From positions 4,216,001 to 4,280,000 of the forward strand of contig NZ_JAZIFX010000001.1 in assembly GCF_036634175.1 (NCBI RefSeq): 64,000 nt of DNA, written 5' to 3'. Positions within the stretch are counted from its first letter, which is position 1. Every line of letters starts with the position of its first letter. Shown here in pieces: positions 37,160-44,777 of this stretch. Origin of the DNA: Streptomyces sp. P9-A2. GTDB lineage: Bacteria > Actinomycetota > Actinomycetes > Streptomycetales > Streptomycetaceae. Below the pieces are notes generated by a model, which saw only the letters and a list, made by a program, of their open reading frames with translations, had not been told where the DNA came from and did no database searches. The position numbers and the translations under genes were made by a program.

Positions 37160-37706
37160 GGCCAGAGCGGCGGAAGGTGTCGACAGCCGGTCTCGTCGCC
37201 CGGCCGCTCAGGCACGGGGCCGACAGCTTTCCAACGGGGGTGGTGGGAGGCCGGCCCCACTCGCCTCGTACCGGCGGCAGACCGCTGGTCGGCGGCAGGA
37301 GCCGGATGACGTCTCATGTCGGCGGATGACGTCTCGCGTCGGGCCGCCGCCTCCCCACATCGGCATCCACGATCCACGGCCCACGGCCCACGACCCCCGG
37401 GCGTCGACAGCGCCGAGTGAGGCCGCGGCGGCGACGGACGGGCGGAAAATCGCCGTTCCGGTGCCCTTTCCGCCCCGGCCGGCTGGCGGGACCACCACCA
37501 TGGAGGCGCCGGGATCTCCGCACTCCGCAAGTGAATTATCGATTCGGCTTCGTTTCCCTTTTCCCATCCGCCCCTGGTGAATCTGCCGTCCGTCAAAAGA
37601 AAACCGAGCGGGTCGAATTTTCGTCAAGTGGTGTGATCGGTGGTTTTTGGACTTTATCTGCCGAAGGATCCGGGAAACCGTTTCTCCATATCTACGATCG
37701 CAAGCT
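37160..37706. other. Non-coding leader region of the oxidase operon
   Basis: About 550 nt without a convincing gene. It contains a direct repeat (ATGTCGGCGGATGACGTCTC, 37306-37345) and CCACGGCC repeats near 37370-37400. The last 200 nt are markedly A+T rich for this genome (long A and T runs at 37595-37650), which would suit a regulated promoter or bound protein. I cannot place the -10 and -35 elements. The ATG at 37707 lacks a good Shine-Dalgarno (ATCGCAAGCT). Confidence 0.5.
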
Positions 37707-39746
37707 ATGACCGACATTTCACGGGAAAACTCGGCCATCCGTGAGCGCTGGCAGACCTGCCTCAGGCTTGCCCGCGAACTCCTTCTCGTCGGGCCGGACG
37801 ACAAGGACCTCAAGCTCGGCTATCTCCACACCCTGATCGACACGGGCGACCTCGGCCCCACCCGTCACCCGCGCAAGAAGATCCTCGTCATCGGCGCCGG
37901 CATCACCGGCCTCGTCGCCGGCCGCCTGCTCAAGGACGCCGGCCACGACGTCACCGTCCTCGAGGCCAACGCCGGTCGCGTCGGCGGGCGCATCAAGACC
38001 TTCCGCGCCACCAAGCACCACCAGCCCTTCGCCGACCCCGCCCAGTACGCCGAGGCCGGCGCCATGCGGCTGCCCGACTTCCACCCGCTCGTCCTCGCCC
38101 TCGTCGACAAACTGGGGCTCGGCCGCCGTCAGTTCTACAACGTGGACGTGGACCCCTCCACCGGCAGCGGCCCCGACGTCCCCGTCCCGCCGGTGACGTA
38201 CACCTCCTTCACCGGCCGGACCTGGACCCACGGCGACGACAGTCCCGACTTCCGTGAACCCGACAAGCGCGGCAACGCGTGGATCCGCGCCAACCGCGTC
38301 CAGGTGCGGCGGGCCGACTACACCGCCGGTCCCGAACGGATCAACGAGGGTTTCCACCTCACCGACGACGAGGTCCGCTCCCCCGTCGTGAAGATGGTCG
38401 ACGACGCGCTGGAAAGCGTGCGCGACTACTATTCCGACGTCGTCGACGGCACGCGTGTCAACAAGCCGTTCGACGAGTGGGTCGAGGGCTGGGCCCGGGT
38501 GATCCGCGACTTCGACGGCTACTCCATGGGCGGCTTCCTGCGCGATCACGCCGGGCTCAGCGACGAGGCGATCGAGGCCGTCGGCACGCTGGAGAACATG
38601 TCCTCACGGCTGCACCTCTCCTTCTTCCACAGCTTCCTGAGCCGCAGCGACATCAATTCCACCGTCCGCTACTGGGAGATCCCCGGCGGCAGTTGGCGCC
38701 TGCCGCACGCTCTCCACCAGGGCCTGCGCGACGAGGTGCGGCTCGGCCACCGCATGATCCGCCTCGAGTACCACGACCCCAGCCGCGACGCCGGCCCCGA
38801 GGGCACCGGCGCCGTCGGTCCCGACGGCTGGGGTGTGGCCGTGCAGACCGTCGCCGAGCACGATCCGCAGGCCCCGCCGCGTCTGTGGACCGCGGACCTG
38901 GCGATCGTCACCGTCCCGTTCTCCGCCCTGCGCTTCGTGGAGATCGTCCCCTCGATGTCGTACAAGAAGCGCCGCGCCCTCATCGAGACCCACTACGACC
39001 AGGCCACTAAGGTGCTGCTGGAGTTCAGCCACCGCTGGTGGGAGTTCACCGAGGACGACTGGCGCGGCGAGCTGGAGAACATCGCACCCGGCCTCTACGC
39101 GTACTACCGGCTCGGCGCCGACGCGGACGCCGAGCCCCGCATCACCCTCCCCGATCCGGAGGCCGGCCTGCTCGGCGCCGCGGTCAAGGACAGCGGCGTC
39201 ACCGAGGAGATGCGGCGGCTCGACAGGACCATGCCGCTGCGCGGCCCCGCCGTCCGCCCCGCCACCCACTGCTTCGGCGGGGGCTCCGCCGCCGACAACC
39301 CCAACCGGTTCATGTACTACCCCTCGCACCGGGTCGAGGGCAGCACCGGTGGCGTCGTGCTCGCCTCGTACTGCTGGTCCGACGACGCCGCACGCTGGGA
39401 CTCCCTGTGCGAGGCGGAGCGCTACGTCTACGCCCTGCGCAACCTCCAGGCCGTGCACGGCCGCCGCGTCGAGGTGTTCTTCACCGGCCGGGGCGCCACC
39501 CAGAGCTGGGCCCGCGACCCGTACGCCTTCGGCGAGGCCGCCATCTACACCGCGCACCAGATGACCAGCTTCCACCTGGACGTCTCCCGGCCCGAGGGCC
39601 CCGTGCACTTCGCCGGAGAGCACACGTCCCTCAAGCACGCCTGGATCGAGGGTGCCCTGGAGAGCGCCGTCCGCGCCGCCGTCGCCGTCCACCGGGCCCC
39701 GCCGGTCACCACCCCGGGCCCGGACAGGGAGGAGTACTCGTCGTGA
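37707..39746 (+). CDS. L-glutamate-oxidase-like flavin amine oxidase
   Basis: 679 residues of the L-amino-acid oxidase family, closest in my recollection to L-glutamate oxidase of Streptomyces sp. X-119-6. It has the FAD dinucleotide motif [12 protein letters not shown] (61-72), [14 protein letters not shown] (86-99) and the C-terminal FAD site PVHFAGEH. Aligning from memory with that enzyme, substrate residues R124, R305 and H312 correspond here to R121 (GAMRLP), R301 (ENMSSRLHL) and H308 (FFHSF). Oxidative deamination of L-glutamate, giving 2-oxoglutarate, ammonia and H2O2, is the leading hypothesis. There is no signal peptide, so it is probably cytoplasmic. The stop overlaps the next gene by GTGA, so this is the first gene of a three-gene operon. 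Confidence 0.88.
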
Positions 39747-41653
39747 TCGCGATCACCCCGGGGTGCACGGTCGCCCGCTACCTCGCCCTGCGCCTGGCCG
39801 AGTTGGGTATCACCCACCTGTTCGGCGTCCCCGGCAACCACCTCGGCCCGTTCCTGACCACCCTGCGCGCCGAGGGCGACATCGAGTGGGTCGGCACCCC
39901 CACCGAGGGCGGCGCCGGCCAGGCCGCCGACGCCTACGCCCGCATCCACGGCATAGGCGCGGCCGCCGTCACCTACAGCGTCGGCGCGTTCAACCTGCTG
40001 GGCGCGTGCGGCGGCGCCTACGTCGAGCGGGTCCCGCTCGTCGCCGTCAACGCCTCCCCGCCCTACGAGCAGTGGCAGAACTACCGTGCCCTCGGCCTGC
40101 TCACCTCCCACATGATCCCCCGCCCGGAGAGCAACCTGGACGTCTACCGGCAGGTCACCGTGGACGCGCAGATCATCTCTCACCCGGGGCTCGCCCCCGG
40201 CCAGATCGACGCCGCGCTCACCGCGTGCCTCTCCGAGCGCAGGCCGGTCTACCTGGAGGTCATGGAGGACCTGTGGGACGAGCCCTGCGCCGAGCCCGGG
40301 GAGCCGATCCTCCGCCGCGAGCGGCCGTTCGGCGCACGCGACCAGGCCATGCTGGACAGCGCCGTGCACGCGATCCTCACCCTGATCGAGGAGCACCCCG
40401 GCCCGGACGGCAGGCCCCGCCCGATCGTGTGGGCCGGCGAGGAGATCGACCGGTTCCGCCTCGGCGGGCGGCTCACCGACCTGGTGGAGGCCACCGGAGT
40501 GCCGTTCTGCACCACCGTCGGCGCCAAGGCCGTCGTCGACGAGGACCAGCCGCAGTTCCACGGCGTCTACAACGGCCACGCCAGCCACCCGGACATGCAC
40601 TGGATCTTCCAGGACTGGGCCACCTGCCGTATCGGGCTCGGCGCCTGGTCCACGTCGAAGGACCTCGGCGGCGAGCAGTCCGTCGGCACCGACTGGGTGA
40701 TGGCCGCGAACGGCGGCCTCAGCGTCGGCACCTCCTACTTCCCCGACGTCCGGCTCGAACAGCTGCTGCCCGCCCTCCAGGGCGCGCTGGTCAAGGGCTA
40801 CGGCTCCGGGGGCCTGGCCGCCGACTACTACGCCGAGGCCCACGCCCACCACGGAGCGCCCGAGGACCGCCCCGCCGCCCTGGAACACCACCGCGCCTCA
40901 CTCCGGGTCTCCGGCTCGCCGTCCCGGCACCCCGAACGGCTCACCTACGACGGCGTGTTCGACCGGATCAACCACTTCCTGGGCCACGAGACCCGGGAGG
41001 ACTGGACGGTCGTCTCCGACGCCGCCTTCTCCCTCATCGGCTCGATGAACCTGTCCCTGCCCGCGGGCGGGTTCCTGTCCCAGGTCAGCTGGCTGTCCAT
41101 CGGCTGGTCGGTCGGCGCGGCCACCGGCGCCGCGCTCGCCCCCGAGCGCACGCCCGCCCGCCCGATGGTGTTCGTCGGCGACGGCGCCTTCCAGGAGACC
41201 TGTCAGGAGATCTCCACCCACACCCGGCTCGGGCTGCGGTCGGTGGTGTTCGTCATGGACAACGGACACTTCTACGGCATCGAGCAGATGCTGGTGCGCC
41301 CGTCCTACTACGCCGAGCCGGGTTCCACCGGCCCGGACGGCTCCGTCGGCCCGGACGGCTTCACCGGCCCCGCCGACCCGGACGGCCCCGCCGACCCGGA
41401 CGGCCCGGACTTCTACAACGTCCTCCACCCGTGGCACTACGACCGCCTCGCGGCCGTCTTCGCCGGCAGGAACACCCCGGCGAACGGGGTCGTCGTGGCG
41501 GACACCTCCGAGCTGGACGCCCTGCTGGCCCGCCTCACCGCCCCCGCCGACCCGGTCAACGCCGGACCGCTGCTGGTCCGCGTCCGCCTGCGCCGGCACG
41601 ACTACCCGCGAGCGATGGCGTACAAGGTGCCGAAGCCCGCCACGACCGCCTGA
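39743..41653 (+). CDS. ThDP-dependent 2-oxo acid decarboxylase-like enzyme
   Basis: 636 residues with the pyruvate/indolepyruvate decarboxylase layout: N-terminal Pyr domain with activating E55 ([17 protein letters not shown]), middle domain, and C-terminal PP domain with the ThDP motif G479-D-G-A-F-Q to N507 ([13 protein letters not shown]). The paired active-site His of pyruvate decarboxylase is here S122-H123 (LLTSHM), so chemistry may differ. A Gly/Pro/Asp repeat insert (about 528-556) follows the ThDP motif. GTG at 39743 overlaps the oxidase stop and has GGGAGGAG upstream. Coupling to an amino acid oxidase suggests it consumes the 2-oxo acid, yielding an aldehyde (succinate semialdehyde if the oxidase uses glutamate). 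A carboligase is an alternative. Confidence 0.85.
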
Positions 41654-41733
41654 CGGGCCGCCCGGCCCGGCAGGAGCAAGAGGCGCGCCGAGGCGGTGCG
41701 CCGGAAGAAACCCGTGTCCGAAGGGGGCAGGAA

Positions 41734-42243
41734 ATGGCTGATCTCAACGTACTGATCGCATTCGACGCGGCCACGATCGTCGAGCGGTACCCCGACGCGT
41801 CGAAGAACCCCGACGCGCCGACCTACGTCGACGAAAGCCTGATCTACATGACGACGCGCCAGGACCACATCATCGGCACGTCGGGCGCCGAGCTGAACCT
41901 CCGGGCCGAACCCGGGGACAGCGTCAAGTGGCGGGAGACGACGCTGTCGCTCGACACCGACCACAAGGCACTCCTGTACCGGTACGTGAGCAGCGACAGC
42001 GAGCACGTGCTCATCAGGACGCCGGAGATCGAGGTGATCGACGGCGTCTATCCGATGCCGAAGGAGGGAACCGAGGGCAGGCCGGAATTCGTGACGCAGA
42101 ACTACCAGGATCATTACTGGCGGACGACGGTCAAAAGGACCGGCAAAGTCGTGTACCACTTCTCCTTCCAGATCCTGGACCGCCATCGGCAATTGAAGGG
42201 GTACTTCCAGTGGGACCCCTTCATCACCATCGAAAATCCCTGA
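41734..42243 (+). CDS. PixA/AidA inclusion-body family protein
   Basis: 169 residues matching the PixA/AidA family: NVLIAFDAATIVERYPDASK, YMTTRQDHIIGTSGAELNL, the signature GDSVKWRETTLSLDTDHKAL, and the C-terminal VVYHFSFQILDRHRQLKGYF then WDPFI. Family members form crystalline inclusion bodies in Xenorhabdus or are quorum-induced in Ralstonia, with unclear biochemical function. AAGGGGGCAGGAA precedes ATG 41734. It is third in the operon, 80 nt after the decarboxylase, and ends before a terminator. Its presence beside two metabolic enzymes in an actinomycete is unusual. It may scaffold or store them, which is speculation. Confidence 0.88.
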   Translation: MADLNVLIAFDAATIVERYPDASKNPDAPTYVDESLIYMTTRQDHIIGTSGAELNLRAEPGDSVKWRETTLSLDTDHKALLYRYVSSDSEHVLIRTPEIEVIDGVYPMPKEGTEGRPEFVTQNYQDHYWRTTVKRTGKVVYHFSFQILDRHRQLKGYFQWDPFITIENP

Positions 42244-42256
42244 CGGCTCGGGTGGA

Positions 42257-42285
42257 GGGGGCGGTCGGCACAGAGGCCGCCCCCC
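42257..42285 (+). terminator. Terminator of the oxidase operon
   Basis: GGGGGCGG pairs with a CCGCCCCC run 13 nt past the PixA-like stop, loop about ten bases. No long T run follows, as is common in Streptomyces. Confidence 0.75.
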
Positions 42286-42288
42286 CAT

Positions 42289-42942: not shown

Positions 42943-43620
42943 TCAGGCGGCGAGGCCGACGCCGTCGGGGGTGCGGGGCTCGTAGAGGGCGCCGGTGCGG
43001 ATCATCGCGTGGATGACGTTCACGCGTTGCCGGGCCAACCGGAGGATCGCCTGGGTGTGGGTCCTGCCGCGTGCTCGCTGACGGTCGTAGTAGATCCGGG
43101 AGGACGGGTCGCTCTTGCAGCCGATCGCGGCGAACGCGGCCTGGAACAGGGCACGTTTGAGGAGCCGGTTGCCGCGGTGGGGCGCGTGCTCGCCGCGGAT
43201 CGAGGTGCCCGAGGACTTCGTGGCCGGGGCGAGTCCGGCGTAGGAGGCGAGGTGTCCGGCGGTGGGGAAGCCGGTGCCGTCACCGATCGCCACGATCACC
43301 GCGGCCGTGGTCCTGACGCCCAGGCCGGGCAGGGACGTCAGGAGGTGGAAAAGAGGGAGGGCCTCCAGCAGGGCGGCGATCTCCTGCTCGGCCTGGCTGC
43401 GCTGGGTGTGGGCGGCGGCGAGCTGGCCGGCCAGCCCGGGCACGATCAGCGCGGACGCCTCGGTGCCGGGAACCACCAGGGTCTGCTCGGCCAGCGCGTC
43501 GAAGATCTCCCCGCTCAGGTGGTGGGCCTTGCGCGAGCCGTGTGCCCTGAGCAGGGCCTCGCAGCGGGCCCGGCCGAGTCTCTTCAGCCTGGCGGGCGAG
43601 CCATACCGGACCCGGGGGCC
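42943..43620 (-). pseudogene. IS110-family transposase, C-terminal part
   Basis: About 225 codons encode the Transposase_20 half of IS110/IS116/IS902 enzymes: LTSLPGLGVRTTAAVIVAIG, TAGHLASYAGLAPATKSSGT, GNRLLKRALFQAAFAAIGC and YYDRQRARGRTHTQAILRLA. The N-terminal DEDD catalytic domain is absent; upstream sequence changes abruptly near 43620. It cannot transpose. The intact 3' end with stop suggests a single upstream deletion or insertion junction. Confidence 0.85.
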
Positions 43621-43976
43621 AGGCGCCCCATTGCGGGGCCACGAAAAAGGTAACGGGGGACCGGGATCGCCAGTGCCACCGCACAGGAGGGTGCGATGGG
43701 CGCGGCGGGGCGGCCCGTCTTCGTGCCGCATCCCCAGAGCGCCGGCCTCTTCAACAGGGAGACGGGCGCGGAGGTCGTTGTCGGTACGGCCTCGTACTGG
43801 GCCGTACTCGGCTGTTCGGCTGACGAAGCGGGATACCGTGCCGGGCGTCGCGAGCGTCGAAGGCCTTCGACCTGTGACCATGGGGCGTTCATTGAATGTG
43901 ATCGACGAGGAGCTCCAGGTCCTGGGGCCGACGTGTCGCCGCCGTGAGGTGCTCATGGGAACGCGCTGCAGGTGAT
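43621..43976. other. Junction region, possible gene remnant
   Basis: A plus-strand frame from 43696 (MGAAGRPVFVPHPQSAGLFN, continuing to about 43850) shows fair third-position G/C but loses it after GYRAGRR. No family is recognised. It may be the stub of a gene cut by the IS110 event. Low support. Confidence 0.35.
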
Positions 43977-44777
43977 GTGGTGGACTGGCTGACCTCGCTG
44001 CCGGCGGTGGTGCTGGTTGTGGGCGGGCTCTTGCTCGCCTTACTGGTCGCGGCCGTGGCGCGGATCGGAGTCCGGGCGCTCGTACCGGTCGGGGAACGGG
44101 ACCGGGTGCCGCAGATCGCCACACCCCTGATGCCGACACTCGGCGCTGCCTTCGCGATCTTTGCGGCACTCTCACTGGCCAGCGAGGCCGGCTACCTGCG
44201 CGCAGCAGAGGGGCTGGTGAGCGACGAGGCGGCTGCGGCCTCCCGCCTGGCATGGGCGGCGACAAGTCCGCGAGTCCAGTCGGAGCCGATCCATGCGGCG
44301 CTGCTGGACTACTTGCAGACCACGCGTGCCAAGGAATGGAAGAGTCCGGCAGCGGCGTCCGGTGACGACCCGGCCACCGCCCGCGCGATCGCACAGCTGG
44401 AACGGAGCGTGCGTGCCGAGGCGGCCCGGCCCGTGGTGGGGACCACGACAGGCACGGAGCTGGTGGTTTCCCTGGACGGTGTCACCAGTGGTCGTCGCGC
44501 CCGCGTCGCGGCCGCCTCGCGCGACGTTCCCACGCTCTACGTGGTCACGCTGGTGGTCAGCGGACTGGCCTTGATCGTGAACTCCGGCGCACTGGTCTTC
44601 CGCAGCAGCCTGCGAACGTCACTGCTCATCGTGGGTGTCGCGAGTGTGGTCGGGCTGAGCCTGGCGTTGCTCTTCGCACTCAGCGCGCCCTGGAGCGGAC
44701 CGTTGATCGTCAGTGGGCATCCACTCGACGCCGTCATCGGGGACCTGAGGTCCGGCTTCTTCCACGGCGGGCCGTAG
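43977..44777 (+). CDS. DUF4239/bestrophin-like membrane protein
   Basis: 266 residues with two N-terminal helices (about 4-26, 42-64) and two C-terminal helices (about 188-207, 214-236) separated by a cytoplasmic helical region (LVSDEAAAASRLAWAATSPR, then ALLDYLQTTRAKEW). This matches the bestrophin-like DUF4239 family, presumed channels. Start is GTG 43977 or GTG 43980 with AGGTG just upstream. Codon use is slightly less biased than in core genes. Confidence 0.75.
   Translation: MVDWLTSLPAVVLVVGGLLLALLVAAVARIGVRALVPVGERDRVPQIATPLMPTLGAAFAIFAALSLASEAGYLRAAEGLVSDEAAAASRLAWAATSPRVQSEPIHAALLDYLQTTRAKEWKSPAAASGDDPATARAIAQLERSVRAEAARPVVGTTTGTELVVSLDGVTSGRRARVAAASRDVPTLYVVTLVVSGLALIVNSGALVFRSSLRTSLLIVGVASVVGLSLALLFALSAPWSGPLIVSGHPLDAVIGDLRSGFFHGGP

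Follow-up and report, generated by a model that had tools for sequence, protein, structure and literature searches.

A compact set of three co-translated genes forms one operon in the window analysed here, a stretch of 64,000 nucleotides (nt) from Streptomyces sp. P9-A2 (contig NZ_JAZIFX010000001.1, positions 4,216,001 to 4,280,000). The genes encode a relative of L-glutamate oxidase (LGOX), a 2-oxo acid decarboxylase dependent on thiamine diphosphate (ThDP) and a protein of the PixA/AidA family. We propose, with a probability of about 0.55, that they constitute an intracellular glutamate-oxidising module. All three genes would be transcribed from one conserved, probably leaderless promoter. 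The oxidase would convert L-glutamate and O2 to 2-oxoglutarate, NH3 and H2O2, and the translationally coupled ThDP enzyme would then decarboxylate 2-oxoglutarate to succinic semialdehyde and CO2. General dehydrogenases could oxidise succinic semialdehyde to succinate, and PixA, a protein of jelly-roll fold encoded on the shared mRNA, may be an accessory of the unit in assembly, storage or peroxide protection. This proposal is built on the operon, its gene content, its conservation and its conserved active-site residues, from which we infer both substrates, the cytosolic location, the direction of flux and the role of PixA.

A three-gene operon conserved in Streptomyces

The oxidase gene (ATG, 37707-39746; 679 residues), the decarboxylase gene (GTG, 39743-41653; 636 residues) and pixA (ATG, 41734-42243; 169 residues) lie on the forward strand, and their products match the S. 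hirsutus counterparts by 98-99%. The first two genes overlap by four nucleotides (GTGA) and 80 nt separate the second from pixA. Across related genomes, where the gene caller was crude and the operon genes were placed by tblastn, we refer to PixA-linked oxidases as clade A, to those without PixA as clade B and to more distant relatives as clade C. Of the 46 clade A loci, 42 have a junction of exactly -4 nt between the oxidase and decarboxylase genes; the other four (L105, L118, L165, L172) probably deviate owing to start calls, a gap in the alignment and a frame shift in L172. The same overlap occurs in 13 of 20 loci from clade B and other genera, the remaining seven not having been scored by the script. 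The decarboxylase-pixA junction ranges from -8 to +145 nt. The original prediction that the three genes are one transcription and translation unit is supported. The terminator that it placed after the third gene fared less well. A strong hairpin is present (42257..42286, forward strand; -40.6 kcal/mol, z -4.45), but a U-run was looked for after it and not found, so the hairpin is likely, not certain, to be a terminator.

When the upstream regions of 18 clade A loci in different genomes were aligned, they revealed a common block containing a GGACTTT box (37649..37655, forward strand), a putative regulator site that is altered in L158. A putative -10 element, TACGAT (37693..37698, forward strand), ends 8 nt before the oxidase ATG; TANNNT stands in the same place in all 18 regions, two of which read TAGGAT, and in the S. 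caniscabiei locus L140. No ribosome site was obvious by eye before this ATG, and the 8-nt gap suggests that the oxidase mRNA is leaderless. An Rfam search (E up to 0.5) gave no match, a sigma-70 consensus match was not found either, and the upstream region has no second copy in the genome, where one weak 28-base match had E 0.63. In L140, where both enzyme genes have been lost, an intact pixA directly follows the opening codons of the oxidase and a still recognisable version of the block, in which GGACTTT is altered. Retention of that block suggests that pixA uses the oxidase promoter, yet can persist without the enzymes. A separate pixA promoter, which the original prediction had named as an argument against itself, is therefore not borne out.

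To survey co-occurrence, 392 genomes of the genus were searched, of which 22 carry PixA, 34 the decarboxylase and 130 the oxidase (both enzymes at E <= 1e-100). By coordinates and tblastn, the decarboxylase is directly upstream of 21 of the 22 PixA genes and a full-length oxidase is present as well in 20; the two that deviate are G166, which retains an oxidase remnant, and G272, in which neither enzyme was seen in the fetched stretch or at E <= 1e-100. One genome, G009, has both enzymes and no PixA. A full-length oxidase adjoins the decarboxylase in 33 of the 34 decarboxylase-positive genomes, the 34th holding an oxidase remnant, and all 33 oxidases of clades A and B in this sample adjoin a decarboxylase. 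The co-occurrence proposed as a check was thus clearly positive, and these counts reject a chance neighbourhood.

Scanning named-species genomes with a PixA alignment yielded 60 loci (L136-L195, which overlap in part with the unnamed loci L101-L135 from the same genomes). Near-complete PixA occurs in 38 Streptomyces loci, with the decarboxylase directly upstream in 36; the oxidase is apparently intact in 32, frame-shifted in L172, reduced to remnants in L137, L138, L145 and L163, and missing from L140. In L137 (the same genome as L102), L138 and L145 the oxidase has internal deletions of differing extent but still overlaps by 4 nt with the decarboxylase gene, which is open, as is pixA. Neither enzyme was present in the stretch examined at the other 22 PixA loci (two Streptomyces fragments, nine from other actinomycetes and eleven from other bacteria). 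Most clade A loci have different flanking genes, so that conservation concerns the cassette and not the region. Membership of a larger gene cluster was rejected for clade A on the same grounds, though there is local synteny in one subclade, which has some neighbours in common (clusters c5/c6 before, c8-c11 after).

Active sites of the oxidase and the decarboxylase

The oxidase matches the amine oxidase family PF01593 (E 4.4e-46) and the X-119-6 LGOX structure 7e0c (E 2.5e-282, aligned over residues 17-666 of 679). Its R121, R301 and H308 align with Arg, Arg and His of X-119-6 LGOX (structures 2e1m, 7e0c, 8jpw), the R301 position being Glu in 7e0c and Arg in 8jpw. This alignment agrees with the original prediction; the numbers R124, R305 and H312 are its own, and R305 also appears in the excerpts of the literature consulted, which place it in contact with the substrate side chain. 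The R301 codon lies at 38607..38609 (forward strand). R121, R301, H308, Y555, W557, W646 and K435, together with the neighbouring Met, are invariant in 58/58 oxidases (33 clade A, 12 clade B, 13 clade C). This homology and these invariant residues support L-glutamate as the likely substrate.

In a midpoint-rooted oxidase tree, which left out L137, L138, L140, L145, L163, L172, L173 and most unnamed clade A loci, clades A and B form one group against clade C with support 1.0 (A 0.88, B 0.93). X-119-6 LGOX itself is nearer to the clade B protein tested, L130 (1281 bits, versus 942 to the P9-A2 protein), and PixA was not found in clade B loci. No export signal was seen in the oxidases of clades A and B, which points to a cytosolic enzyme. 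In contrast, of the 13 distant oxidase loci read from the 97 genomes with only distant matches, 12 show a twin-arginine (Tat) signal, the thirteenth, L196, being incomplete in the output. No decarboxylase or PixA was present in the fetched stretch of these 13 loci. Since the decarboxylase adjoins 33/33 oxidases of clades A and B and 0/13 distant ones, and Tat signals occur only in the latter, the exported oxidase appears to act by itself, and the form without a signal together with the decarboxylase. An exported oxidase in the operon was rejected because Tat signals were confined to the distant relatives sampled. L135 and L196-L207 represent a large group of probably Tat-exported LGOX relatives, and no decarboxylase adjoins them in the stretches examined.

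The decarboxylase contains the ThDP domains PF02776, PF02775 and PF00205 and the GDG..N motif, and it scores below the curated cut-offs of two NCBIfam indolepyruvate decarboxylase equivalogs (159.3 versus 946 and 157.3 versus 554.5 bits). The folds closest to its AlphaFold model (mean predicted local distance difference test, pLDDT, 82) are those of pyruvate decarboxylase (PDC), indolepyruvate decarboxylase and branched-chain decarboxylases (2vk4, 1zpd, 1ovm, 2vbg), with template modelling (TM) scores of 0.67-0.73 by query and 0.76-0.85 by target length and 21-26% identity. It shares with them the ThDP motif and the equivalents of Glu50, His114 and Glu473, and differs in having Ser or Thr for His113, Asn or Asp for Asp27, and R127, R296 and K306. 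The PDC catalytic set Asp27, His113-His114 and Glu473 corresponds to N32, S122, H123 and E514 in the P9-A2 enzyme (S122-H123 codons, 40106..40111, forward strand). The Ser-His replacement confirms the original prediction, which did not mention the Asn at the Asp27 position. Since two of the four positions differ, the protein is by sequence a relative of PDC and not a PDC.

Glu55, His123, Glu514, R127, R136 and R296 are invariant in a 63-row alignment of the family, K306 is kept in 62 of the 63 rows, and position 122 is Ser or Thr. Among 152 distinct sequence strings, some perhaps differing by trimming only, R127 and R296 are each present in 152 and K306 in 149. None of the three occurs in five PDC-like comparators from related genomes, which have Asp at R127, Leu or Val at R296, Thr, Leu, Ser or Tyr at K306, and His at 122. 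The R127 (40121..40123) and K306 (40658..40660) codons, both on the forward strand, fall in low-confidence loops of the model (residues 121-141 and 304-311), which we take to be the mobile active-site loops of PDC; since the loops are unsettled in the model, the placement of both residues in the pocket rests on alignment. We infer that these loops clamp an acidic substrate, in which K306 may hold the distal carboxylate if this is 2-oxoglutarate, and the decarboxylase seems tuned to an acidic 2-oxo acid. The predicted step from 2-oxo acid to aldehyde is thereby supported and sharpened. K306 is replaced by Asn or Gly in three sequences of one lineage (87-90% alike). In two loci with this replacement, L246 and L247, the decarboxylase is paired with a different, second amino-acid oxidase and no LGOX, whereas L222 and L223 of the same genus, with LGOX, keep Lys. 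This covariation comes from one event and is suggestive, not proof.

The cyanobacterial 2-oxoglutarate decarboxylase MaKGD is presumably from a different branch of ThDP enzymes. The parts of its description consulted (PMC10418658) give the reaction proposed here, 2-oxoglutarate to succinic semialdehyde, and Gln254, Lys386 and Lys471 as substrate contacts, Lys471 being docked onto 2-oxoglutarate. By hand alignment of this one position, no counterpart of Lys471 is seen in the P9-A2 enzyme, whose K306 and R127 lie elsewhere.

PixA, sister operons and competing explanations

The third protein matches PF12306 with E 1.4e-46 (159.2 bits versus a gathering score of 21), and its model (pLDDT 92.7) has the fold of 4pib, 4lzk and 4q52, with a TM score of about 0.8 to 4pib and 4lzk. 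Its identity to the solved PixA/AidA proteins, from Xenorhabdus and Burkholderia, is 18-22%, and unlike them the P9-A2 branch is fixed in an enzyme operon. It has three Met and no Cys; among 29 copies, 23 are likewise free of Cys. Broken or short versions of PixA occur in L160, L163, L172 and L173. Ratios of nonsynonymous to synonymous substitution rates, estimated by a simple method that is biased where third positions are GC-rich, were below 1 in all pairs computed: 0.16-0.35 for the oxidase, 0.26-0.58 for the decarboxylase and 0.02-0.82 for PixA (18 pairs), where the highest values (0.63, 0.82) lie between two subclades and pairs including a broken-oxidase locus gave 0.02-0.32. PixA thus appears to be mostly under purifying selection.

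The original suggestion that PixA packages the enzymes found no direct support: the enzyme pair occurs in many genomes that lack PixA, and in others PixA or the decarboxylase is present though the oxidase is not. PixA may be a passenger, co-transcribed but with its own unrelated task, so that the real unit is the two enzymes. We regard this as rather unlikely, although several observations favour it: the enzyme pair occurs without PixA in clade B and other genera, neither enzyme is present in the fetched stretch at 20/20 loci of PixA relatives outside Streptomyces, and in S. caniscabiei PixA survives alone behind the old promoter. On the other side stands the fixed position of the decarboxylase directly before near-complete PixA in Streptomyces (36/38), with an 8-nt overlap in several loci. 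Pairwise protein distances also correlate (oxidase-decarboxylase 0.80, oxidase-PixA 0.69, decarboxylase-PixA 0.58; none reached in 999 permutations), though common descent explains much of this. The 29 loci compared exclude L136 (a near-copy of the P9-A2 locus), L137, L138, L145, L160, L165, L140 and L163 (gene missing), and L172 and L173 (outside the script range).

In a family-wide scan, 43 of 375 genomes, from 3 of 17 genera, have the decarboxylase at E <= 1e-150. It is rare beyond the family, a class scan (E <= 1e-120) giving 3 of 374 genomes, all of this genus (1 of 133 genera). Thirty family-scan loci were examined, five from genomes of the 392 sample; an oxidase lies within 1.5 kb upstream of the decarboxylase in 25, two are DyP-decarboxylase pairs and three have the decarboxylase alone. 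The oxidase-decarboxylase core extends to two further genera of the family, and some of its loci carry DyP and lack PixA. A DyP-type peroxidase is directly upstream of the oxidase or the decarboxylase in L123, L124, L130-L132, L242, L243, L250 and L251, and L124, L130 and L131, like the family-scan loci L208, L213, L214, L219 and L220, have a second flavin amine oxidase after these genes. A search of clade A loci (E <= 1e-10) found neither. The decarboxylase is the most constant part, and the presence of the oxidase, DyP, the second oxidase and PixA varies. The L123 decarboxylase and the L247 second oxidase each appear in two frames, and some damaged genes are either draft errors or real decay.

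These sister operons bear on the possibility that H2O2 and NH3 are the purpose, as a peroxide-generating device for competition or signalling in which the decarboxylase pulls the reaction and PixA or DyP handles the peroxide. The oxidase family generates H2O2, the DyP-oxidase-decarboxylase order recurs in part of clade B (L124, L130-L132; DyP degraded in L123) and in another genus (L250, L251), and DyP and PixA were never together in any locus searched. This mutual exclusion may be mere ancestry, however, the clade A and B oxidases lack the export signal of the sampled Tat-type relatives, and 7 of the 12 clade B loci are without the L130-type DyP (one of them, L126, has a 27% relative). We consider such a device unlikely. 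Still more doubtful is the use of the ThDP enzyme as a carboligase that joins a 2-oxoglutarate-derived carbanion to another carbonyl compound, giving an unknown metabolite. Proton-relay changes in ThDP enzymes can favour ligation, and in 111 rows, which include repeats from the same genomes, Asp27 is Asn in 66 and His113 is Ser, Thr or Ala in all; but the His114, Glu50 and Glu473 equivalents are retained, and the cassette of clade A as a whole is not accompanied by other biosynthetic genes. A bolder version of the PixA role has an equally low standing: PixA would serve an intracellular peroxide-forming pathway as its dedicated partner and fill the DyP slot of the sister operons, as an assembly that holds or shields both enzymes or by peroxide uptake. 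If true, a PixA/AidA protein would gain a metabolic function, and the LGOX-decarboxylase pair would be a glutamate-to-succinic-semialdehyde bypass.

Several points weigh against the glutamate-oxidising module itself. Three named clade A genomes keep an open decarboxylase gene and PixA with most of the oxidase deleted; either the decarboxylase there has another 2-oxo acid source or the losses are recent. Since every cell has plenty of 2-oxoglutarate, an oxidase is hardly needed to supply it, and making it by an oxidase is odd, which suggests that peroxide or ammonia matters. The decarboxylase stands alone in four loci (L241, L244, L245 and L249, the last a Streptomyces locus with an 83% decarboxylase), and the operon has no aldehyde-handling gene. 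The K306 change is confined to one lineage, the R127 and K306 loops are of low confidence and placed by alignment, and the Lys471 that is docked onto 2-oxoglutarate in MaKGD has no counterpart by hand alignment. Moreover, a review, in the part consulted, calls Streptomyces LGOX extracellular (PMC4699246), although clade B, the nearest to X-119-6, shows no export signal.

Related systems and neighbouring features

Glutamate oxidase is widely used in biosensors. Ehrlich-type routes combine an aminotransferase and a 2-oxo acid decarboxylase to lead from amino acid through 2-oxo acid to aldehyde; the proposed module follows the same order but begins with an H2O2-forming oxidase, and its enzyme genes are translationally coupled. 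A published description of an operon of these three families was not found in the open-licence PubMed Central literature, in line with the statement of the original prediction that none was known; excerpts of PMC13026155, PMC10694123 and PMC9060813 were also drawn on. The review cited above, in the same part, gives the physiological function of Streptomyces LGOX as unknown (PMC4699246), and partnership with a coupled decarboxylase offers a concrete, testable lead. The two enzymes may be a natural pair for succinic semialdehyde production, and one PixA branch gains a fixed biochemical context.

Within the decarboxylase gene, a Gly-Pro-Asp-type repeat expansion (41324..41410, forward strand) forms a variable linker that is shorter or absent in other family members compared; the model has pLDDT <50 at residues 527-553. 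A reading frame for an IS116/IS110/IS902-type transposase lies just downstream of the operon (42946-44394, reverse strand). In L130, a ferritin-like PF12902 protein is encoded divergently from the DyP-LGOX operon (L130:3629-4996).

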